NCBI GenBank assembly: GCA_003167365.1
Contig: PMTM01000006.1
Span: 206,391 to 270,390, forward strand
DNA length: 64,000 nt
Source: Spartobacteria bacterium
Lineage (GTDB): Bacteria > Verrucomicrobiota > Verrucomicrobiia > Chthoniobacterales > UBA10450
Direction: 5' to 3'
Below are positions 45,718 to 56,064 of this stretch, in pieces. A model generated the notes under the pieces. The model ran no database searches and was not told where the DNA came from. It saw only the letters and a list, made by a program, of their open reading frames with translations. Within the stretch, counting starts at the first letter, position 1, and each line of letters starts with the position of its first letter. A program made the position numbers and the translations under genes.

Positions 45718-47208
45718 TCAGTGGACGGGAACGACAGTAGCCTCCGCCATTGCCTCAGACGGTACCTCGGCCTTGTCAGTAATCAGCTTGCGCAGGAACG
45801 GAATGAGCAGAACGAGCGCGATGCCGACCACGAGACTGCCCGCGCCGAGCGCGCCGAAGAGCTTCACATACTCGGGATTGGTCGCGACCGCCGTGGTACC
45901 GCTCGGCTCAGGGATCATGCCCGAGAAGTCGCCCGAGAAGAGTGACGCGAGGCCGGTCACGAGCATCCAGCTGCCCATCATCACACCTTGATATTGCCTC
46001 GGCGCGAGCTTGCCGATCATCGCGTATCCGATCGGAGAGATGAGCAACTCACCGACGCTCTGCAGCACATAACTCATAAACAGCCACGCGAACGCACTCT
46101 TGCCGTCAACGCCGGCCAGCTTGATGCCCAGCGGGAGAATGAGAAAGCCCAGCGCCATCAAAATCAGCGACGTCGCAAACTGCTTCGGGATGTCGATCCT
46201 CCATCCGCGCGCGCGCATGCGAGTAAAGAACGACGCGAGCAGCGGTCCGCCGACCACGATGCAGACGGTGTTAATGTTCTGAATCCACTGCGGCTGAATC
46301 TCCATCTTGCCGATCATCAGGTTGACGTTGTTGACCGCGAACAGCTGCAGGCCGCTCGGTGCCATCTGATACAGCGACCAAAAGGCCAGCGAGCCAATCG
46401 TCAAAATCAGGTAGGCCGTCATGTTCCGCCGCTCGCGGCGATCCGGGTGACGAATCGTTAGGTAGATCAGCGTCAGCGCGACCACGGCGCAGATGCCCTT
46501 GATCAGCGTCTCGGTCATGCCGGGCCGCTGCAGCATCAACCACACGACGGGTATGAGGCCGAGGAGAATGCCGATGCCGGCGAGCAGGCGCAGCCGAAAT
46601 TGTTTCGACTTCGCCTCGAGCAGCGGTGTGTTGCGATCGGCCAGCGTCTTCCACGACAGCGCGGCGAGGACGATGGCGACGAAGTTGCCGAGCGTCGCGA
46701 AGATGAAGAGGCTCGCATAGCTCTGGGTCCCCTGGAAGTAGCCGGCGACGGCGAACCCGACGAAGAATCCGACATTCATGCCCGCGTAGTTCCAGAGGAA
46801 AGCTCCTTCGCGACGCGGATCTTCCGGGGTAAAACGCTGCGTCAGCATCATGTTGATACAGGTGACGTTGAGGCCGCTGCCGGTAAGAAAAAAGGCGAGG
46901 CCGATGTAGAACATCGCGGCCGTGCCGACTGCAATGCATCCGCAACCGATGACCTGTAGCGCCATGCCCCCGACGAAAAGATTCCGGTTCGAGAGAAAGC
47001 GGCCGCCCAGATAACCGCCGAAGAGGTGCAGGCCGTAGTTGAAGGCGCCGAACACGCCCATCAACGTCGTCGCCACTTTCACCGGGAGCTGCAGATGCTT
47101 CGTCGCGTAGAGGACCAGCGTCGAGTAAAGGACGGCGAAGCCGAGGGTCGCAAAGATCTGAATAAAGAATAAGACCGCTGTTCCTTCTGGAGCTTTAGGC
47201 GATTTCAT
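45718..47208 (-). CDS. Proton-dependent oligopeptide transporter (POT/PTR family)
   Basis: 496 residues with about 12-14 membrane helices, a major-facilitator peptide:H+ symporter. The FYSTLVLYATKHLQL start, the region around GGYLGGRF, FFLTGSGLNVTCINMMLTQRF, and FLWNYAGMNVGFFVGFAVAGYFQ match POT family motifs, and the late YVLQSVGELLISPIGYAMIGKLAP segment matches the PTR2 signature region. It would import di- and tripeptides. The ExxERFxYY motif of helix 1 is not present in standard form (GFAVLYST instead), so it may belong to a divergent subgroup. It stands alone between the TA module and a 400-nt gene-free stretch. Confidence 0.85.
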   Translation of the reverse strand: MKSPKAPEGTAVLFFIQIFATLGFAVLYSTLVLYATKHLQLPVKVATTLMGVFGAFNYGLHLFGGYLGGRFLSNRNLFVGGMALQVIGCGCIAVGTAAMFYIGLAFFLTGSGLNVTCINMMLTQRFTPEDPRREGAFLWNYAGMNVGFFVGFAVAGYFQGTQSYASLFIFATLGNFVAIVLAALSWKTLADRNTPLLEAKSKQFRLRLLAGIGILLGLIPVVWLMLQRPGMTETLIKGICAVVALTLIYLTIRHPDRRERRNMTAYLILTIGSLAFWSLYQMAPSGLQLFAVNNVNLMIGKMEIQPQWIQNINTVCIVVGGPLLASFFTRMRARGWRIDIPKQFATSLILMALGFLILPLGIKLAGVDGKSAFAWLFMSYVLQSVGELLISPIGYAMIGKLAPRQYQGVMMGSWMLVTGLASLFSGDFSGMIPEPSGTTAVATNPEYVKLFGALGAGSLVVGIALVLLIPFLRKLITDKAEVPSEAMAEATVVPVH

Positions 47209-47607: not shown

Positions 47608-48234
47608 TTAGCTGTTGCCTCTTTGCCGGACATCCTCGGGGATAAACGGCAAAGCATCTGCGTCCATGTTAAGTCGGCTGAATTGGGGGCCAATAGCGAA
47701 CTGATATTTGCCGCTTTCAGAATGCGGCTTTTCAACTGCGGAGAGTGTCTCCCGCAAAATCATCTGCGCAACCCGAACGCCCGGATAAATCGGCAACGGC
47801 ATGTTGCCAATGTTCGATAACTCAAACGTTATTACACCGGAAAATCCCGGTTCAACACAGGTCGCAGTCGCGATTTGAAGACCGAGCCGTGCCCATGAAG
47901 ATCTACCTTCGACCTGCCCCTCCAAATCATTCGGAAGCCGAACATATTCGAAGGTCGCCGCTAAAGCGAGAACCCCAGGATGAAGAACAAAGCTTTGAGA
48001 GCAAAATGGAACGATCCGTCGTTCTTGAAACCGATGAAGCCCTTCTTTAGAAATCGTGAATGGATTTATTTCGCCTTGAGTGTGTCGCCGAAAAATGATG
48101 AACTGATTTCCAATTCGTAAATCAATCGACATGTCGCGGACTTGATCTCGTCTAAGAAGAGGTGAAACAATCAAACGCTTACCGTCGCGCGATGTGAGCC
48201 GCTTTCTTATTTCTCCACTAGTCAATGTTGCCAT
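47608..48234 (-). CDS. dCTP deaminase-like protein
   Basis: 208 residues of the dCTP deaminase/dUTPase trimeric fold: DMSIDLRIGNQF, the GRSSWARLGLQI nucleotide-binding segment, CVEPGFSGVITFELSN with the catalytic Glu, and the GVRVAQMI strand. The N-terminus (TSGEIRKRLTSRDGKRLIVSP) is longer and more polar than in housekeeping Dcd. It is the third gene of a minus-strand group with two proteins of unknown function and lies opposite a ubiquitin-like operon. Some Dcd homologues act in phage defence by depleting dCTP, so a defence role is conceivable here; that is inference. It may equally be the cell's metabolic Dcd. Confidence 0.85.
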   Translation of the reverse strand: MATLTSGEIRKRLTSRDGKRLIVSPLLRRDQVRDMSIDLRIGNQFIIFRRHTQGEINPFTISKEGLHRFQERRIVPFCSQSFVLHPGVLALAATFEYVRLPNDLEGQVEGRSSWARLGLQIATATCVEPGFSGVITFELSNIGNMPLPIYPGVRVAQMILRETLSAVEKPHSESGKYQFAIGPQFSRLNMDADALPFIPEDVRQRGNS

Positions 48235-48303
48235 AAATCATTCAAGGATTCACCAGAGGTCCGAATCTCGTTTGGACATAACTTGCTTCGATCGCCTTCA
48301 AAG

Positions 48304-49545
48304 TCAGTTGGAACAACATATCAAGGTATTCGTCGAACTTGACATCACTGCGAGGGAGTACGGTGATTGTAAATGTGACCGAAGACTCCCAAGGACTTCC
48401 GTTCGAATTCTTTCATAGTTAGTCTCTAACAATTCGTATGCCTTCTTACTACGCACGTCACTGTTGATCGCGACGCGATCCGCGTTAGAGCTGGTCAATA
48501 CTTGTCGCCAGTCTTCGAGCCACTTAACGAAGCTACGAAGAGCTGGGTGCCATTGTTCAGTCATCGCCGCTTGCAATTCGGGCAGAAGAATCTCGATTAT
48601 CTTTGTTAATCGAAATCGCCAAGGAGGATAATCTCCGCATTCGAGGGGATTCGCATCTAACTCGAACCTACTCGAAAATTCACAGAGTGAGGCAAGAGCG
48701 GCGGGACCTAATATGTGTGCGCCGATAGCGTCACTGATAAGCTCTTTGAGCGACTTCCGCGTGAGAGAAAGTGTGCGTTTCATGTAGTCTGCAACAATCT
48801 CATCCGCGAGAACTGGTGGTCCGAGTTCATTCTGGACGTAATCGCGAATCGCGGCCTCGATTGCGGGAGCTTCCCTCTGCCAGAGCTCGTCGAAATGTTC
48901 CGCCATCCATTCTGATATCAAGATGTGCCCGATCTCGTGTCCCCAGTTTGCATGAGTAAGCACATTCATTCTTTCCACTCGCGGGAATGAAATGATGAAT
49001 ATCCGGTGGCTCGCCGATTCTTTTATGGTGGCGTGCCATTCACTAATAGGAATCCAATCTGGGAAACTCGAGAATAACCTTCTGTAATAAGCAACCCGAT
49101 CGCCTACGATCGCGTAATTATAGCTCCATTGTGGCCGAATAATGAATTGGTATTCTGAGCCGAGTGTCGCTTGGAGGAACCTCTCCATGGCTTGTACTAA
49201 ACTCCAGGGCGTGTGCTCGACACGAGAGCGATCCGCATATCTAAGATCCTCGCCAAGTGCCGCGAGGATGAAATGGATATGGGAGAACCGATCCGGAGGG
49301 GCAATGGCAATTCGCTGATAGATCAGTCGAGCGGATGCCCGGATTATCCCGCAAAATTCGCGAGCAGTTTCGTTCGGAAAATCTTCAGCCTGCTCTAATG
49401 TAGCCGCCAGTTTTGCGAGTGACTCCGCATGTCGTCTCAATTCTGCCAACTGAATGTCGACTGGTAAATTCAAAATCCGCCGCGGTGTACATCGCAGCTT
49501 ACGCCGAAGTAGATATTGGACGATCTTTTTCCAAGGGGACACCAT
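48304..49545 (-). CDS. HExxH-motif protein of unknown function
   Basis: 413 residues, no signal peptide or membrane segment. The N-terminal ~190 residues are helical and unrecognised. Around residues 200-215 lies NWGHEIGHILISEW, with an HEIGH zinc-protease motif, and about 70 residues later SDAIGAHILG offers a possible third ligand (Asp or His), an arrangement seen in gluzincin-like metallopeptidases. It may be a soluble zinc peptidase. It overlaps the preceding 161-residue gene by 47 nt and is followed after 69 nt by the dCTP-deaminase-like gene. Its start codon lies a few bases from a GCCTAACTGGT motif. Family unknown to me. Confidence 0.75.
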   Translation of the reverse strand: MVSPWKKIVQYLLRRKLRCTPRRILNLPVDIQLAELRRHAESLAKLAATLEQAEDFPNETAREFCGIIRASARLIYQRIAIAPPDRFSHIHFILAALGEDLRYADRSRVEHTPWSLVQAMERFLQATLGSEYQFIIRPQWSYNYAIVGDRVAYYRRLFSSFPDWIPISEWHATIKESASHRIFIISFPRVERMNVLTHANWGHEIGHILISEWMAEHFDELWQREAPAIEAAIRDYVQNELGPPVLADEIVADYMKRTLSLTRKSLKELISDAIGAHILGPAALASLCEFSSRFELDANPLECGDYPPWRFRLTKIIEILLPELQAAMTEQWHPALRSFVKWLEDWRQVLTSSNADRVAINSDVRSKKAYELLETNYERIRTEVLGSLRSHLQSPYSLAVMSSSTNTLICCSN

Positions 49546-49984
49546 TACCAGTTAGGCGCAACAATAGTTCTGTGGAGAGTCGATGAAGGAATGCAGCCGC
49601 AAGATCCATGTGATCGAATGATTGATCTTTATTCATTTCACCGGATGACTGCAAAAAGTGATATGTCGAAGATAGAAATTCGCGAATCTGTTCCGGGTCG
49701 GCAATTCCAGCCTCAGTAAAAAGCTGCTTTGTGTTTCGCAGCGTCGCATAAAAGGACGGTCGTACCTCCGTAGCCCGCACCGACAAGTGGCCGGCACCTT
49801 CTGTACCAGCATCAGTTCGAGCTTTCCAGTCAACCTCTTCCAAAAACACGCCACACCATCGAAGATTCTCATGATCCTCATCACGAAGCGCGTCACCCTG
49901 CGACAGTTTTGCTAAACTCGTTGCGGCTGCCTGCAATTTGCTGCTTGCCTCAAAAATGTCCGAAGAAGCGAGTACAGTTTTCAT
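49499..49984 (-). CDS. Unknown helical protein, first gene of the dCTP deaminase/HExxH group
   Basis: 161 residues, soluble, mostly helical by composition (LQAAATSLAKLSQ, REFLSSTYHFLQSS, DLAAAFLHRLSTELLLRL). A GGAG lies upstream of the ATG. The start codon directly follows the sequence ACCAGTTAGGC, part of an inverted-repeat set around 49547-50093. The coding overlap with the HExxH gene shows that the two belong together. No family recognised. The divergent XRE gene of the ubiquitin-like operon starts 187 nt away. Confidence 0.7.
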   Translation of the reverse strand: MKTVLASSDIFEASSKLQAAATSLAKLSQGDALRDEDHENLRWCGVFLEEVDWKARTDAGTEGAGHLSVRATEVRPSFYATLRNTKQLFTEAGIADPEQIREFLSSTYHFLQSSGEMNKDQSFDHMDLAAAFLHRLSTELLLRLTGNGVPLEKDRPISTSA

Positions 49985-50093
49985 GCCTAACTGGTCTCCA
50001 AGAATATCGCCCTAGAAATACCTCCCTGATTTAGTTCGGAATTCAATAGTATTCTCGCGTGGCCAAGTCGTCTGCTGAGGAGCCTAGTTAGGC
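49985..50093. repeat. Inverted repeat with attC-like boundaries (tentative)
   Basis: GCCTAAC at 49985-49991 and GTTAGGC at 50087-50093 are perfect inverted ends fitting RYYYAAC...GTTRRRY, and just inside them CTCC and GGAG also pair, leaving a short unpaired spacer, as in integron attC sites; total length 109 nt. A third copy, ACCAGTTAGGC, lies at 49547-49557. No integrase is in the window. It could instead be an operator or chance similarity. Confidence 0.35.
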
Positions 50094-50105
50094 GTTGCTT
50101 AGCAA

Positions 50106-50136
50106 GCAAGCGGCATTTTCTAGAAAAAACGCTTGC
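50106..50136. promoter_or_regulatory. Inverted repeat in the divergent promoter region
   Basis: GCAAGCG (50106-50112) and CGCTTGC (50130-50136) form a 7-bp inverted repeat around an A/T-rich 17-nt centre, between the dCTP deaminase group and the ubiquitin-like operon. It may be a second protein-binding site. Function is inference. Confidence 0.35.
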
Positions 50137-50154
50137 GTCAGCCGCCATAAGCAT

Positions 50155-50166
50155 TGTAAGCTTACA
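50155..50166. promoter_or_regulatory. Perfect palindrome TGTAAGCTTACA, putative XRE operator 1
   Basis: A 12-nt perfect palindrome ending five bases before the XRE start codon. The half site TGTAAGC recurs as an inverted pair inside the promoter of the next gene (50548-50569). The shared motif next to an XRE gene strongly suggests that the regulator binds both and represses itself. Confidence 0.7.
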
Positions 50167-50171
50167 GTCCT

Positions 50172-50525
50172 ATGTCGAATAAGAATCTGGGGGACTTGCT
50201 TCGCGATTTGCGACAAGCTGCAAATCTATCGCTTCGCGAATTAGCAAAATTTGTCGACGTGTCCGCGCCGTTTTTATCAGACGTAGAGCTCGGTCGTCGG
50301 TATCCGTCGGACGAGGTCCTCGGCAGAGTCGCCAAGACGTTAAGGGTACCCATCGAACGATTCAAAGAGCTTGACCATCGCGAGGCAGTTTCGGATTTGA
50401 AAAAATTGATCACAGCAAATCCAAGTTTGGGTTTGGCATTTCGAACAGCCGTTGATGACATCAAAGTAGGAAAGATCACAGCCGCCCAGCTTGCGGACGC
50501 ATTAAAACGAACGAAACGCCATTAA
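50172..50525 (+). CDS. XRE-family transcriptional regulator of the ubiquitin-like operon
   Basis: 117 residues. The N-terminal ~60 residues form a Cro/CI helix-turn-helix (LRDLRQAANLSLRELAKFVDVSAPFLSDVELGRR region). The C-terminal half is helical with a GKITAAQLADALKR tail that may dimerise. It stands at the head of the conjugation operon, 54 nt before the ubiquitin-fold gene, and its putative operators (TGTAAGC motifs) lie at its own start and in the promoter of that gene. Such a regulator would keep the operon off until a signal arrives. Confidence 0.9.
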   Translation: MSNKNLGDLLRDLRQAANLSLRELAKFVDVSAPFLSDVELGRRYPSDEVLGRVAKTLRVPIERFKELDHREAVSDLKKLITANPSLGLAFRTAVDDIKVGKITAAQLADALKRTKRH

Positions 50526-50542
50526 ATCCCAAAATTTTTCAC

Positions 50543-50571
50543 TTGACTGTAAGCCTACATCCGCTTACAAT
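50543..50571 (+). promoter_or_regulatory. Sigma70-like promoter overlapped by XRE operator 2
   Basis: TTGACT (50543-50548), a 17-nt spacer and TACAAT (50566-50571) make a near-consensus promoter. TGTAAGC (50548-50554) and GCTTACA (50563-50569) form an inverted repeat within it, so a bound XRE dimer would block RNA polymerase. The -10 box ends 8 nt before the ATG at 50580, so the transcript would be nearly leaderless. Confidence 0.7.
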
Positions 50572-50579
50572 TGCATATC

Positions 50580-51320
50580 ATGACAACTACTACTCAATCA
50601 AGCGGCAGCGCTGATACCCCCAACACAAAACACGGTGACCCTGCTGTAAAATGGGCAATACTGTTAAACGACGAGCTCTTCCCCATGCCGCGCAGAAAGC
50701 TTCTCGCGCGTGACATTCTGGACCAATGTGGCGTAGCGCAAGATTTCAGCTTGCAGCGAGATCACGGTGGTACGCATGACGTGGTTTTTGCTGATGACAA
50801 AGAGGTCGATCTGGCGCAAGGAAATGTTTTTCGCACAACGCCCCGTTGCGAAGCCACCGGTCAGCAGCAACCAGATGAGCCTGCGAAGCTTGCTTTTGTA
50901 CTCGATGATCATTGGGAGCTGACACTGAGTCCACGGCAAACAGGACACACTCTCAAGCACCTTTTCGGCCTCCCAAACGAGGCTGAGGTAATGCGCGACT
51001 TCGAATCGCCGACCGACAAACTCATTCGCAACGAAGACACTGTGCTCTTCGCTGATGGCCCTGTGTTTACTTTACGCAGCGTCACTCTCACGATCACCGT
51101 TAACAATAAAGAAGTACAATTCAGCCGTCGTTCGGTCACCGCCTTGCAGATCAAGGAGGCGGCTATCGCCCAACATGTGAACATCCAAATTGGGTTTGTC
51201 CTCTTTCGAATCAAACCTGACGGGAACATCAGCCCTGCGATTCCAGACGATCAGGTCGTGAAGCTCAAACAGGGTGACGCTTTCCGGTGCGTTGCCGCAG
51301 ACGACACGTCATGGCGCTAA
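50580..51320 (+). CDS. Triple ubiquitin-like-domain protein (Multi_ubiq family)
   Basis: 246 residues from the ATG at 50580. After a polar N-terminus three beta-grasp-like units follow, at about 22-90 (KWAILLNDELFPMPRRKLLARDIL), 100-165 (KLAFVLDDHWELTLSPRQTGHTL) and 168-240 (TLTITVNNKEVQFSRRSVTALQI). Each starts with two short strands and the helix of a ubiquitin fold and ends with a strand such as VLFADG or KLKQGDAFRCV. The C-terminus is DDTSWR, with no Gly-Gly. In the operon it should be the protein modifier activated by the JAB-E1 protein and transferred by the E2. Processing by the JAB domain or use of another C-terminal residue would be needed. Overlaps the E2 gene by 10 nt. Confidence 0.85.
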   Translation: MTTTTQSSGSADTPNTKHGDPAVKWAILLNDELFPMPRRKLLARDILDQCGVAQDFSLQRDHGGTHDVVFADDKEVDLAQGNVFRTTPRCEATGQQQPDEPAKLAFVLDDHWELTLSPRQTGHTLKHLFGLPNEAEVMRDFESPTDKLIRNEDTVLFADGPVFTLRSVTLTITVNNKEVQFSRRSVTALQIKEAAIAQHVNIQIGFVLFRIKPDGNISPAIPDDQVVKLKQGDAFRCVAADDTSWR

Positions 51321-51715
51321 AATCAGATATAGCGCGTGCGATAGAGGAAATTCGTGCCGCTTACCCGGGGCATGCCGTTTCGTTCAAAGAAGACGGTGAA
51401 GGCGGTGCATTTGTTGAAGTTGCCGATCTACCTTTGGGGGAGCAGTACGAACCGAACACTTCGTGGGTGCGTTTTCGGATCACGTTCCAATATCCAATGA
51501 CCGATGTTTACCCTCATTTCGTTGTCGATGGATTAAGGCGTAAAGATGGCAAGCCGTTGGGCGAGAGTTTTCAGCTCAACAATCAAGGATGGCAACCGCC
51601 GAGCGGTACAATTACGACAACGATGGTGTCGCGACGATCCAATCGTCGCGATCCTGCGACTGAAACAGCAGCCATCAAACTGGAGAAGGTCCTCGCATGG
51701 ATCCGTTCACGGTGA
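51311..51715 (+). CDS. E2-like conjugating enzyme (Prok-E2 family E), without cysteine
   Basis: 134 residues from the ATG at 51311; the longer GTG start at 51287 lies in the ubiquitin-fold gene. The region FRITFQYPMTDVYPHFVVDG resembles the beta-meander and PxxxP region of E2 folds, and GTITTTMVSRRSNRRDP with a closing helix KLEKVLAWIRSR corresponds to the active-site loop region and last helix of the bacterial E2 family found next to Multi_ubiq genes. The protein has no cysteine anywhere, so a thioester cannot form; Ser in the SRRSN segment is the obvious alternative. Overlaps the E1 gene by up to 19 nt. Confidence 0.82.
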   Translation: MALKSDIARAIEEIRAAYPGHAVSFKEDGEGGAFVEVADLPLGEQYEPNTSWVRFRITFQYPMTDVYPHFVVDGLRRKDGKPLGESFQLNNQGWQPPSGTITTTMVSRRSNRRDPATETAAIKLEKVLAWIRSR

Positions 51716-53151
51716 TGAATGAGTTACGCATATCGGCACCATTGTTCGAAAAACTTCAGCTTCACTTGTTCCCTGGCGACGGCGACGAACACGGGGCTGT
51801 CATCTGTGCTGGAATGAGTGAAACCGATCGCGGACTCCGCCTCTTTGCGCGTGAGATTGTCCTCGCACGGGATGGCGTCGATTATGTGCCCGGACAATAT
51901 GGTTATCGCGCGCTAACGCCGGAATTCGTAGCCAGGGTTTCAAACCACTGCGCGCGTCAAGGTCTTTGCTATTTCGCCGTACACTGCCACGGCGGTGATG
52001 ATTTCGTGAGATTCTCGGATGTCGACCTTGAGTCGCATCAGCGAGGGTATCCCGCCCTGCTCGATATCACGGATGGGGGGCCGATCGGCGCCCTAGTCTT
52101 CGCGCACAACGCTGTCGCTGGCGAAATTTGGAGACCTCGTAAAGTTTCGAAACTTACCAAGTTAACAGTTATTGGCGTGAATCATCGCCGATTATATCCA
52201 GAACCAGTTCAGCCGACCCGCGGTTTTGCCGATGTTTACCATCGGCAATCTCTACTCTTCGGAGCTGTCGGCCAAGAGGAGCTACGGAAAGCGAAAATCG
52301 GAATTATCGGCCTGGGTGGCGTGGGCTCTTTGATCAACGAGTGGCTTGCGCGACTTGGAGTTGGAGCAATCGTCGCTGTCGATTTCGATAGGATCGAACC
52401 GAGCAACCGCTCGCGCGTTGTTGATTCGCTGCGGTCCGATTGTCGAGATTGGCTACTTGAGTCGAAAATCCCATTACTGCAGGGAGTCGGTAGAAGACTC
52501 GCCCGCTACAAGGTCCACATAGCGGAACGAGTCGCGCGACGTGCGAATCCTAATATTGATTTCTTTCCTATTGTTGGAAACGTCGTGGACGAAAAGGTGG
52601 CCAAATCTCTCCGCGATATTGATTACTTATTTCTATGCGCTGATACGATGCAAAGCCGGCTCGTTTTCAACGCGCTTGTGCATCAATACCTGATTCCCGG
52701 TGTTCAAATTGGAGCAAAGGTGACCAGCGATGTTGATATAGGCGACGTCACTGACGTATTCAGCGTTGCGAGACTGGTACTTCCTTATCAGACGGGTGGA
52801 TGTCTTCTTTGTAATCAACTAATTGATTCAGCGAAGCTACAAGAGGAGGCGTTGAGTCCAGAAGAACGCAGGCAACAACGTTACGTTAACGATCCGGGAG
52901 TTCACGCGCCGAGCGTAATCACGCTCAATGCGCTCGGAAGTGCGCAGGCCGCGAACGATTTTATGATGGGATATCTCGGATTATTCGATACACAAGAAGC
53001 GAAAATCGGATATCGCATGCATGACGCGTTGAGTCGCACATGGCGCAGCGCCGATTGCGCAGATACGATGAATTGTCTGCACTGCGGAACAAGCGACCGA
53101 TCCATACTCGCGCGAGGTGATCGCGCATCGCTTCCATGTCGTAACGTTTAA
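51697..53151 (+). CDS. JAB peptidase-E1 (ThiF-like) fusion protein
   Basis: 484 residues. The N-terminal ~150 residues form a JAB/JAMM metalloprotease: Glu31, His96-x-His98 in HCHGGDD, and Ser107/Asp110 in FSDVD. Residues ~185-440 form an E1/ThiF adenylation domain: GLGGVGS near 205-211, VDFDRIEPSNRSR, and FLCADTMQSRLV. Two CXXC pairs (369/372 CLLC and 460/463 CLHC) would bind structural zinc. The segment HAPSVITLNALGSAQ near 402-415 has Ser where many E1-like enzymes carry a catalytic Cys. It should adenylate the ubiquitin-like C-terminus, and the JAB part should process or remove the modifier. An ATG at 51715 overlapping the E2 stop (TGATG) is an equally good start. Confidence 0.86.
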   Translation: MDPFTVMNELRISAPLFEKLQLHLFPGDGDEHGAVICAGMSETDRGLRLFAREIVLARDGVDYVPGQYGYRALTPEFVARVSNHCARQGLCYFAVHCHGGDDFVRFSDVDLESHQRGYPALLDITDGGPIGALVFAHNAVAGEIWRPRKVSKLTKLTVIGVNHRRLYPEPVQPTRGFADVYHRQSLLFGAVGQEELRKAKIGIIGLGGVGSLINEWLARLGVGAIVAVDFDRIEPSNRSRVVDSLRSDCRDWLLESKIPLLQGVGRRLARYKVHIAERVARRANPNIDFFPIVGNVVDEKVAKSLRDIDYLFLCADTMQSRLVFNALVHQYLIPGVQIGAKVTSDVDIGDVTDVFSVARLVLPYQTGGCLLCNQLIDSAKLQEEALSPEERRQQRYVNDPGVHAPSVITLNALGSAQAANDFMMGYLGLFDTQEAKIGYRMHDALSRTWRSADCADTMNCLHCGTSDRSILARGDRASLPCRNV

Positions 53152-53166
53152 TGACGTATTAGTTCG

Positions 53167-53225
53167 TTATTGTGTATCAAATCGTTAAACCGCTCGAAAA
53201 ATTTTTCGTAATTCTACATTGGCCG
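53167..53225 (-). pseudogene. SDR 3'-end remnant, copy C
   Basis: About 58 nt match the extreme 3' end of the SDR gene and its copy B (56152-56210) at roughly 50 positions with small indels. The minus strand still spells NYEKFFERFNDLIH, corresponding to KYDAFFQQFNDAMHK of the intact gene at 56387; the stop codon is lost. A decayed duplicate, 3.2 kb from the intact gene. Confidence 0.65.
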
Positions 53226-53229
53226 CCTT

Positions 53230-53245
53230 CTGCGGCCCGCCGCAG
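53230..53245. terminator. Perfect hairpin between the convergent E1 and ABC-F genes
   Basis: CTGCGGC-CC-GCCGCAG is a perfect 7-bp stem between two convergent stops. It lacks a long T-run on either side, so it may be a bidirectional terminator or only a repeat-derived palindrome. Confidence 0.4.
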
Positions 53246-53269
53246 CTGGTGAACTGCACTTAGCGGGGG

Positions 53270-55174
53270 TTAGTTGTGCACGGTAATATTTGGGGACGGA
53301 ACGTTTTGCAGGAGCTCGAGTTCGTGCCAACGCGCGTAAAGGTGCGCGACTTTGTCGCGCGCCGTTTTCAATTGCGTTTCTAGATCGAAAATCTCGGTGC
53401 GTGGTTTCGCGTAAAAATTCGGAGCGGCGAAGATGGCTTCCAAATCCGATACTTCGTTTTCTGCGGCGAGAATGTTTGCTTCCATCGATTCCCATTCGCG
53501 TTCTTCTTTATATTTGAGTTTCCCCGGTCGGGTTTTGTCCCGCCTAGGCGGGGCGGCCGGCGCGGGAGTTGAAGCGGGAGCCGAGACGAGTGCGCTGCGT
53601 CGTTCCAGATAGTAGTCGTAGTTCCCGACGCTATAGGCGACGCGGCCTTCGCCTTCGAAAGCGAGGATCGAAGTGCAAACGCGATTCAAGAAATAGCGAT
53701 CGTGGCTGACCACGATGACGCAGCCGCCGAAGGCGACGAGCGCTTCCTCGAGCAAGCGCAACGTTCCGAGATCGAGATCGTTGGTCGGTTCGTCGAGCAT
53801 CAAGACGTTGCCGCCGCGCTTCAGGATTTTGGCGAGCAGCACCCGGCTGCGTTCGCCGCCGCTGAGCTGCGAGATCTTGGTGTTGATCCGGTCTTCGCTG
53901 AAAAGAAATCGCCGCAGATACCCGCGCAAGGTGATGCTTTGCTCGCCGAGGGTGACATGTTCGCCGCCGCTCCCGACTTCTTCCCAAACCGTTTTCGCAT
54001 CGTCGAGCAGGAGCCGGTTTTGATCGACGTAATTGATCTGGGTCCGCGCGCCGATCTCCACCGCACCGCTGGCGGCGGGCAGTTCCTGCAGAATGACTTT
54101 GAGGAGCGAGGATTTGCCGAGCCCGTTGCGGCCGACGACACCGACGCGTTCACCGGCCGCGAGATTGAGATTCACGTGCTGAAAGAGGGTGCGGCCGCCC
54201 AGCGCCACGCTGACGTCGCGCAATTCGATGATGCGATTCGCGAGCTTCGGCGGCGTAGGGATAATTAAGTCGACGTCGATCTCCGCCTCCGGCGCTTCCT
54301 GCGCGGCCATCTCGAAATAACGTTCCACCCGGTCGACCGATTTCGTCCGGCGCGCACGGGGCGCTCTTCTCACCCATTGCAGTTCGCGTTTCAAAAACTT
54401 CTGCCGTTGATGTTCCTGCGCCTCCTCGACCGCTTCTCGCTGCGCGCGCGCGAGCAGGTAATCGGTGTAGTTGCCGTCGTAGCTGATGAACTGGCCGCGC
54501 GACAGCTCGACGATCCGCGTCGCCACGCGATCGAGAAAATAGCGATCGTGGGTGACGAACAAACAGGTACCGGCATAACGCGCGAGAAAATCCTCCAGCC
54601 ATTCGATCGAGCCGGTATCGAGATGGTTGGTCGGTTCGTCGAGAATCAGAAAATCGGGACGCGCGAGCAACGCCCGGCAAAGCGCGACGCGGCGTTTTTC
54701 CCCGCCGGAAAGCGTGCCGACAACGCGATCGGATTCCGGCGCGTGCAGATTCGTGATGAGCGATTTGATTCGATGTTCCAAATTCCAACCGTCGGCCTCG
54801 CCGATCTGGTCGAGGAGGATGGCGCTGAGCGGGCTGTCGCCTGGGACACGTTCGTATTCGGCGATGAGGTCGAGAATCCGCTGCGCGCCGCTGAGAATGT
54901 TGGCGTGGACCGTAGCCGCATCGTTAAGACCGGAAATTTGCGGCATGTAGCCGGTGACGAGATCGCGCCGGCATGAGAACTCACCGGAATCGGCCTGCGC
55001 CACGCCGGCCGCGATCTGGAGGAAGGTCGATTTGCCCGAGCCGTTGCGGCCGACGAGCCCAATGTGTTCGCCCTCGGTGAAGGCAATGGTCGCGCCGTCG
55101 AGGACGACCTGGGTGCCGTATTTGACGGAAAGACTCTTAGCGCTCGCGATGACTGCGGCTGACGTCTCTGCCAT
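53270..55174 (-). CDS. ABC-F family ATPase (Uup/EttA-like)
   Basis: 634 residues with two ATP-binding cassettes and no membrane segments. Walker A: GLVGRNGSGKSTF and GVVGRNGLGKSSL. Signature motifs: LSGGEKRRVAL and LSGGERSRVLL. Walker B: FLILDEPTNHLD and VLMLDEPTNDLD. The cassettes are joined by the P-site linker (residues ~235-300), and a coiled-coil C-terminal tail (~545-625, EEREWESMEANILAAENEV) resembles Uup. ABC-F proteins act on the ribosome, some giving antibiotic resistance. It is transcribed towards the ubiquitin-like operon and is bracketed by SDR 3' remnants. Confidence 0.94.
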   Translation of the reverse strand: MAETSAAVIASAKSLSVKYGTQVVLDGATIAFTEGEHIGLVGRNGSGKSTFLQIAAGVAQADSGEFSCRRDLVTGYMPQISGLNDAATVHANILSGAQRILDLIAEYERVPGDSPLSAILLDQIGEADGWNLEHRIKSLITNLHAPESDRVVGTLSGGEKRRVALCRALLARPDFLILDEPTNHLDTGSIEWLEDFLARYAGTCLFVTHDRYFLDRVATRIVELSRGQFISYDGNYTDYLLARAQREAVEEAQEHQRQKFLKRELQWVRRAPRARRTKSVDRVERYFEMAAQEAPEAEIDVDLIIPTPPKLANRIIELRDVSVALGGRTLFQHVNLNLAAGERVGVVGRNGLGKSSLLKVILQELPAASGAVEIGARTQINYVDQNRLLLDDAKTVWEEVGSGGEHVTLGEQSITLRGYLRRFLFSEDRINTKISQLSGGERSRVLLAKILKRGGNVLMLDEPTNDLDLGTLRLLEEALVAFGGCVIVVSHDRYFLNRVCTSILAFEGEGRVAYSVGNYDYYLERRSALVSAPASTPAPAAPPRRDKTRPGKLKYKEEREWESMEANILAAENEVSDLEAIFAAPNFYAKPRTEIFDLETQLKTARDKVAHLYARWHELELLQNVPSPNITVHN

Positions 55175-55279
55175 AGGAACCCGGAAGGTCGAACGCGCAA
55201 CGCCGGTCGTCCAATCGAAGAGCGGGATCGGCGCTGATTAATCTTGCGCACGAGGCATGTCGCGGGCTTACTTAACGGC

Positions 55280-55447
55280 ATGGTCGCCGTCATCCCCAAG
55301 CGCACCGCGCGCGAAGTCCGGCATGAAGTTCGAGAGATGAACAAAGCCGCAAAGCAGATCAATAAGTCCGCGGCAACAGCTCGAAAATTCCTGCACAAGA
55401 ATGGCTTTACCACCAAGGAAAACAAGGTGAGCGCGCACTATCGGTAG
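55280..55447 (+). CDS. Small basic protein, putative antitoxin partner
   Basis: 55 residues from the ATG at 55280, basic and helical: a KRTAREVRHEVREMNKAAKQINKSA helix and a C-terminal ATARKFLHKNGFTTKENK...HYR motif. Small proteins with an ARxFLxxxGxxT...YR ending are, as far as I recall, common next to uncharacterised toxin-like genes. The candidate ADP-ribosyltransferase-like gene starts 17 nt downstream in the same direction. A pair like this suggests antitoxin-toxin, but that is inference. Confidence 0.6.
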   Translation: MVAVIPKRTAREVRHEVREMNKAAKQINKSAATARKFLHKNGFTTKENKVSAHYR

Positions 55448-55464
55448 CAGCTTCTCCCCCCGGA

Positions 55465-56064
55465 ATGTTTGCCACTTCGTTTGTTCTTGGCTACCACGGC
55501 TGTGACAAGAAGATCGGCGAAAAAATTCTAAGCAGTGGCGATCATGTCTCTCCGAGCAGAAATGCTTACGATTGGCTCGGCGCGGGAGCATACTTTTGGG
55601 AAAATAGTCCGAAGCGCGCGCTTGCTTGGGCCAAGTTTCTACAAAAATATCCTCAGGTCGCGGACCACAGGATCAAGACGCCATTCGTCATCGGGGCCAT
55701 CATCGATCTGGGTAATTGTCTCGATCTGAGCGACGCCGGATCGCTAACCATCATTCGAAAAGGTTATGAGGAATTCAAGGCGACTACCATATCGGCGGGC
55801 GCTCAGTTACCGGTTAATGAACGCGCTCACGACGCAGACACAGATTTGGTCAAAAGGCATTTGGATTGTGCAGTTGTGAATTTCGTTCATGCCCTTCGCC
55901 ATCAATCTAAGCTACGCGCGTTTGATACGGTAAGAGGGGTTTTCACCGAAGGAGGTGAATTATATCCGGGTGCCAAGATTCAATCCAAAACACACGTCCA
56001 AATCTGCATAAGGAATCCCGCGAAAAGCATCAAGGGCTACTTCCGTCCCTTGGTGCAAAAATAA
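55465..56064 (+). CDS. Putative ADP-ribosyltransferase-like protein (toxin candidate)
   Basis: 199 residues. An early LGYHGCDKKIGEKI segment has the H-G motif of ADP-ribosyltransferase folds; about 25 residues later YDWLGAGAYFWENSPKRALAWAK gives the aromatic, glycine-rich G-x-G-x-YF strand and helix; near the C-terminus GELYPGAKIQSKTHVQICIRNP could hold the third motif. The H-Y-(E/Q) order resembles PARP/DUF3990-like toxins. It could modify a protein or nucleic acid with NAD+. No signal peptide. Coupled with the 55-residue gene upstream. The family name is uncertain, and the fold assignment rests on motif spacing alone. Confidence 0.55.
   Translation: MFATSFVLGYHGCDKKIGEKILSSGDHVSPSRNAYDWLGAGAYFWENSPKRALAWAKFLQKYPQVADHRIKTPFVIGAIIDLGNCLDLSDAGSLTIIRKGYEEFKATTISAGAQLPVNERAHDADTDLVKRHLDCAVVNFVHALRHQSKLRAFDTVRGVFTEGGELYPGAKIQSKTHVQICIRNPAKSIKGYFRPLVQK

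Follow-up and report, generated by a model that had tools for sequence, protein, structure and literature searches.

In its textbook form, ubiquitin chemistry passes a glycine-tailed modifier along a relay of cysteine thioesters. Among bacteria, the described systems closest to the operon reported here are the Bub pathways, with solved structures of Citrobacter BubCD and BubB (PDB 9ea4, 9ea5, 9eae, 9eav), and the operon type 6e of Iyer et al. (2006), which comprises a poly-ubiquitin-like (polyUbl) protein, a cysteine-less E2/RWD-like protein and a JAB-E1 protein and is also reported with a zinc-finger protein with the signature C-x3-C-x35-38-H-x2-C (PMC1779556). Here we describe an operon of this kind in a 64,000-nucleotide stretch of DNA (the window) from a Spartobacteria bacterium of the Verrucomicrobiota (assembly GCA_003167365.1, 3.13 Mb in 24 contigs; contig PMTM01000006.1, positions 206,391 to 270,390). 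It encodes an XRE repressor, a protein with three Ubl domains, an E2-fold protein without cysteine and a JAB-E1 fusion (Table 1). Its architecture is not an orphan, as the layout was already described in 2006 as type 6e, where the E2-like gene also lacks cysteine and sometimes stands separately between the Ubl and JAB-E1 genes (PMC1779556). We consider it probable that the operon forms a self-contained pathway of Ubl conjugation and deconjugation, a sister branch of Bub that would work through oxyesters and stand under an autorepressor.

All four open reading frames that the original prediction had placed at 50172-53151 are present, and the claimed domain content in a single operon was borne out by Pfam matches, AlphaFold2 folds and the JAMM signature. 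The genes had been described as four consecutive overlapping ones, which is correct for Ubl/E2 (10 bp) and E2/E1 (19 bp) and fails for XRE, which lies 54 bp away from the Ubl gene. Of the families named beforehand, Multi_ubiq and ThiF were matched, whereas Prok-E2_E (E<=1) and JAB were not. Relatives of the E2 were found at 61 loci by a scan of genome contigs and on nine plasmids, and the homologues do occur together: the order Ubl, E2, JAB-E1 is kept in nearly all of the approximately 70 loci, a recurrence of the trio that is far beyond chance. The hosts belong to about 14 phyla, among them Verrucomicrobiota, Cyanobacteriota, Pseudomonadota, Actinomycetota, Myxococcota, Acidobacteriota, Chloroflexota, Nitrospirota, Planctomycetota, Gemmatimonadota, Rhodothermota, Binatota, Thermodesulfobacteriota and Deinococcota.

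The three ubiquitin-like folds expected in the 246-residue protein were recovered by AlphaFold2, whose models drew on the window and the related loci alone, as beta-grasp units at residues 25-88, 104-166 and 170-238 (predicted local distance difference test, pLDDT, 82.7; N-terminus and tail of low confidence). The best fold matches of this model are bacterial multi-ubiquitin proteins, and the Multi_ubiq match (E=3.7e-9) is confined to the third domain; in a single-sequence PDB search nothing real matched, so that a fold search was needed. DDNS forms the exact C-terminal end in 63 of 67 usable homologous Ubls, a count that excludes locus L072 with no usable Ubl. The four exceptions are DENS in L041, HEDS in L012, DDTS followed by Trp-Arg in the window, and DDNS followed by SEPTC in L039, the latter a Polyangiaceae Ubl (L039:3683-3961) and, besides the window, the sole homologue extended past the motif. 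The Trp-Arg extension arises where the start codon of the E2 gene overlaps with the last codons of the Ubl gene (TCATGGCGCTAA). Because DDTS is capped in this way, the window Ubl probably needs trimming, with removal of the two residues probably required to expose the conserved end, and the JAB domain of the same operon would be the obvious trimmer.

The E2-fold protein received no name from Pfam, NCBIfam, PADLOC or PHROGs (no Pfam match at E<=1), and a single-sequence PDB search again yielded nothing real, so that profiles and a fold search were needed. Its AlphaFold2 model is confident (pLDDT 90.6) and adopts the UBC-type alpha-beta-alpha fold, in line with the E2 fold claimed for this 134-residue protein. 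The best PDB match is BubB (9eae_C; VIA-align Z 13.6, 2.4 A, 122 residues), with UEV domains as runner-up at Z 9.6, and in Foldseek BubB was the only solved structure under 0.001 (1e-4). Furthermore, profile-profile comparison with seven Bub E2s gave 98% probability (E=3e-14) and placed Ser107 on their invariant Ser. There are zero cysteines in the window's protein, and an alignment of 66 E2s contains no conserved cysteine column, the maximum being 14/66 at position 21, close to the N-terminus. Residues invariant in all 66 include D65, Y67, P68, S107 and R108, followed by H69 and S110 with 65/66, and SRRSN shows hardly any change in a sequence that otherwise drifts over much of its length. Ser107 is the best candidate for the nucleophile of the E2-fold protein and of the catalysis that we assume for it.

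JAB and E1 indeed share a single chain, as is evident from the ThiF match, the conserved JAMM residues and the homology to BubCD, with the JAB peptidase at about residues 1-165 and the ThiF/E1 adenylation domain at about 181-484. Pfam gave no match to the JAB family; across 63 homologues, the JAMM signature E31...H96-x-H98-x8-S107-x-x-D110 varies hardly or not at all. BubCD of Citrobacter is the best solved relative over residues 8-423 (416 residues; phmmer E-value in Table 1), and a profile search against it reached E=2e-40. One BubCD structure title carries D104A, and a plasmid homologue 83% identical to BubCD has its JAMM aspartate at 104, the equivalent of D110 in the window. The E1 residues expected for adenylation are retained (R183, R240, K272 and D316 in 63/63; D229 and N237 in 62/63). 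The sole conserved cysteines form a CxxC...CxxC arrangement of the type known from the zinc sites of MoeB and ThiF, and a thiol relay is, judging from the alignment, unsupported at the E1. In phage records no JAB-E1 was found.

The kinship with Multi_ubiq and Bub-type systems proposed beforehand holds, with the JAB-E1 homologous to BubCD and the E2 model closest to BubB. Common to both are the JAB domain N-terminal to E1 in one chain, an E2 of BubB fold that shares the invariant Ser and lacks a conserved cysteine, a Multi_ubiq Ubl, regulators of the HTH/ImmA type and a sporadic, plasmid-borne occurrence. In contrast to the window's E2 (E<=1), tested Bub E2s are hit by Prok-E2_E (PF14462) with E=1e-13 to 1e-35. 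Many sampled Bub Ubls end in or continue past Gly (TEG, TDG-E, NNG-E, TFG) whereas window-type Ubls end in DDNS, and the CxxC zinc-type site is lost in Citrobacter-type BubCD and retained in window-type E1s. DUF6527, which we take to be the Ser-His protease of Bub, is encoded at 12 of the 13 Bub loci sampled and at none of the window-type loci: no match at E<=0.1 was obtained in about 70 related loci, the full 64-kb window included, nor in the window's genome, whereas the seven Bub loci behind the profile were all positive and held-out Bub loci scored in 5/6. A tree of 71 rows separated the 63 E1s in our set, as a group, from eight other Bub-type E1s by a branch of length 1.96 with support 100/100, long branches among the eight making their internal order unsure; the closest relatives of the window's E1 are from Verrucomicrobiota. 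Because the DDNS tail, the absence of DUF6527 and the missing PF14462 match mark off the window-type loci, we regard them as a separate branch. The zinc-finger protein of type 6e is probably DUF6527, and no DUF6527-like gene was found at window-type loci, which were searched by DUF6527 and not by the zinc-finger signature. The DDNS tail is not among the features of type 6e given in the passages considered (PMC1779556). The DDNS group is apparently an uncharacterised branch of the Bub pathways, although an earlier description is possible.

Type II Bil differs from the set in the window by its cysteine E2 and its other partners. Its multi-Ubl protein BilA (PDB 8u38, 9d5b) is similar in its tandem beta-grasp Ubl. 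Cap2/Cap3 of the cyclic oligonucleotide-based antiphage signalling system (CBASS) differ in having an E1-E2 fusion and, in the operon, a CD-NTase target, whereas E2 and E1 are separate genes in the window's operon, which contains no nucleotidyltransferase.

The 'one tight regulator' of the original prediction is supported in that the operator motif is unique to two sites, one of them inside the Ubl promoter. The consensus TGTAAGCYTACA occurs only twice in the whole genome, before xre and at 50548, against a chance expectation of 0.03 per window when at most one mismatch is tolerated. The sequence thus gives strong evidence for a single repressor that would bind and control itself and this operon only. 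The promoter is the sole promoter-like site on the plus strand in 49950-53300, a site count not above that of shuffled sequences. As its end lies only 8 nt upstream of the Ubl ATG, the Ubl message probably has no leader or next to none. At related loci an HTH gene is present in 47/62, mostly divergent, and an ImmA/IrrE peptidase gene in 36/62. The 11-kb region around XRE contains an HTH gene and no match to ImmA/IrrE. The XRE repressor resembles CapH+CapP in its score against PADLOC capH and in the HTH+ImmA pairs common near homologues, and differs in that no adjoining ImmA/CapP gene was detected. CapW or CapH+CapP, which are DNA-damage regulators, accompany 219 of 544 Bub operons (PMC13373217). 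At 48304-49545 the minus strand encodes a 413-residue protein that has a zincin-like HEIGH motif but no Pfam match.

Table 1. Features of the Ubl operon and its control region (positions in the window)
Feature	Positions	Strand	Basis
Operator 1, perfect palindrome TGTAAGCTTACA	50155-50166		5 bp upstream of xre start codon
XRE/HTH_31 repressor, 117 aa	50172-50525	+	Pfam HTH_31 E=7.5e-14, also HTH_3; PADLOC capH E=6.3e-9
Sigma-70-like promoter of Ubl operon, TTGACT-17-TACAAT	50543-50571	+	10/12 matches
Operator 2, TGTAAGC-CTACATCC-GCTTACA, 8-nt spacer	50548-50569		within Ubl promoter
Ubl protein, 246 aa	50580-51320	+	Pfam Multi_ubiq; AlphaFold2
Ubl beta-grasp domains 1, 2, 3	50652-50843, 50889-51077, 51087-51293	+	AlphaFold2
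DDTS, window form of conserved DDNS motif	51300-51311	+	DDNS as exact end in 63/67 homologues
E2-fold protein without cysteine, 134 aa	51311-51715	+	alignment, AlphaFold2, fold match
Trp-Arg after DDTS, then stop	51312-51317	+	sequence
Ser107 of SRRSN, predicted nucleophile	51629-51631	+	66/66 homologues
JAB-E1 fusion, 484 aa	51697-53151	+	Pfam ThiF E=3.4e-25; BubCD E=5e-30
JAMM motif H96-x-H98-x8-S107-x-x-D110	51982-52026	+	H96, H98, S107, D110 in 63/63
Zinc-type cysteines C369/C372 and C460/C463	52801-53085	+	sole conserved cysteines in 63 E1s

In the pathway that we propose, XRE would in the resting cell occupy the palindromes before xre and across the Ubl promoter and keep the operon off. 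After derepression the triple Ubl would be made, and the JAB domain would remove its last two residues and expose ...DDTS. The E1 domain, with its conserved residues, would adenylate the Ubl C-terminus with ATP, and the Ubl would then form an oxyester with Ser107 of the E2-fold protein, either straight away or by way of Ser406 or Thr409 of the E1; oxyester transfer is proposed because a conserved catalytic cysteine is missing from both enzymes. From Ser107 the Ubl would be handed to an amine of the target, by homology to Bub, and the E1-fused JAB domain would take the modifier off again. By analogy with the regulators known from related operons, stress or DNA damage is the probable trigger; phage defence is the probable purpose, and this is the weakest step. 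More tentatively, this could be a DUF6527-free Ubl pathway with a C-terminal Ser instead of Gly, serine oxyesters and a single E1-tethered JAB responsible for all trimming and removal. The acceptor chemistry of the DDNS group itself could be unusual, because activation of a Ser C-terminus, or of Asn once trimmed, is to our knowledge without precedent among beta-grasp modifiers. A group spread over about 14 phyla that keeps the folds without conserved catalytic cysteines or glycine would reveal what the mechanism can and cannot do without; few proteins and one repressor make a compact system for reconstitution, Ser107 and the DDNS end are testable marks, and the defined operator lends itself to tracing the inducing signal.

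Bub itself reportedly works through oxyesters (Ye et al.), and no account of the oxyester mechanism was found in the open-text literature. Several points weigh against the proposed pathway. We know of no conjugate, target or phage phenotype. Thr409 of the E1 is replaced by Ala in 11/63 homologues, and Ser406 is Ala in the sampled DUF6527-type Bub E1s; the E1 may contribute Ser406, Thr409 or neither as nucleophile. Iyer et al. (2006) took the cysteine-less E2 of type 6e as catalytically inactive (PMC1779556), and Bub operons themselves lack demonstrated phage protection (PMC13373217).

A stress or phage-defence role, as favoured in the original prediction, may be assumed for the operon by analogy with its relatives. 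It is a serious possibility, somewhat short of an even chance, that conjugation proceeds as proposed and serves a general stress response or the maintenance of an island instead of phage defence. The XRE-operator autoregulation resembles that of addiction modules, and for Bub operons a role in stress responses of a more global kind has been put forward as a possibility (PMC13373217). The distribution, on the other hand, is patchy and mobile, and a position beside methylases and recombinases is typical of defence. Plasmid loci lie near methylases, an AbiEi-type antitoxin and integrases. Besides the window's genome only 1/58 relatives has the E2, in another family of the same order, and no additional case turned up in a spread sample of 388 genomes from the phylum. 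The G+C content of 48.5-49.4% across 48.0-51.0 kb, compared with about 56% around, fits a recent acquisition. No empty integration site could be defined from the surroundings of four relatives: orthologues of the transporter at 45718 are 83-92% identical in relatives, and in the four contexts compared the neighbours differ, none of the four with an adjoining ABC-F gene.

Alternatively, the E2-fold protein might be a dead RWD/UEV-like scaffold that binds the Ubl while the E1 hands it straight to the target and JAB erases the mark. The complete lack of cysteine, the second rank of UEV domains after BubB and the inactivity that Iyer et al. ascribed to the type 6e domain (PMC1779556) would agree with a scaffold. 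We nevertheless regard it as unlikely, since a near-invariant SRRSN amid drifting sequence is expected of an active site and this Ser does not vary in Bub E2s either. It is still less probable, to a degree that we hardly reckon with it, that the Ubl C-terminus is activated for thiocarboxylate or MccB-like nucleotide chemistry in a sulphur-carrier or small-molecule system without protein conjugation. The next PDB relatives of the E1 include MoeB, ThiF and MccB, the E1 retains MoeB/ThiF-like zinc cysteines and has no catalytic cysteine, and MccB uses a C-terminal Asn, which the Asn in DDNS recalls; however, the E1 is much closer to BubCD than to MoeB or MccB, all these loci encode an E2-fold partner, the conserved neighbourhood contains no sulphur-metabolism, rhodanese or biosynthetic genes, and sulphur carriers have a Gly-Gly terminus. 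A thioester E1-E2 cascade of the canonical kind, known from Bil and eukaryotes and sharing the fold classes and domain order, is rejected because the window's E2 has no cysteine, which excludes thioester chemistry at this step, and its E1 no conserved cysteine outside the zinc-type site; of the normal E2 originally assumed, the fold stands and the thioester chemistry does not.

Some Bub loci show further variations. The Bub-type operons at L075, L076 and L078, which have an E2/UBC-family gene, also contain a gene for a phosphotransferase, located between those for JAB-E1 and DUF6527. In the Bub operon of a Citrobacter freundii plasmid (L074:2079-3772), genes for a 369-aa hypothetical and a winged-HTH protein lie upstream, a pair that resembles CapK+CapS by position (PMC13373217). 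Ubl-E2 fusions with Gly right before the junction occur among many Bub loci (L074, L077, L094, L095, L097, L098), and such fused precursors may need a protease cut.

The neighbourhood had been called rich in toxin-like and repeat sequences, which we could not confirm: the flanks are mostly housekeeping-like (transporter, ABC-F, ferredoxin oxidoreductases), and the defence-like neighbours found are a dCTP-deaminase-like gene and one weak PD-T4-9_A-like match, with no others. Enzymes of the dCTP deaminase type are known as antiphage enzymes. At 47608-49984 on the minus strand, divergent from the operon, three genes encode a 161-aa protein, the HEIGH protein and the dCTP-deaminase-like protein (DCD E=7e-34). 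A membership of these genes in the system is disfavoured, as no homologues of them were found in any related locus, and the set may be a second small defence module. Downstream, at 55244-56064 on the plus strand, a small open reading frame is followed by the gene of a 199-aa protein with the weak PADLOC PD-T4-9_A match (E=1e-5), an arrangement that looks like a toxin-antitoxin or defence pair.

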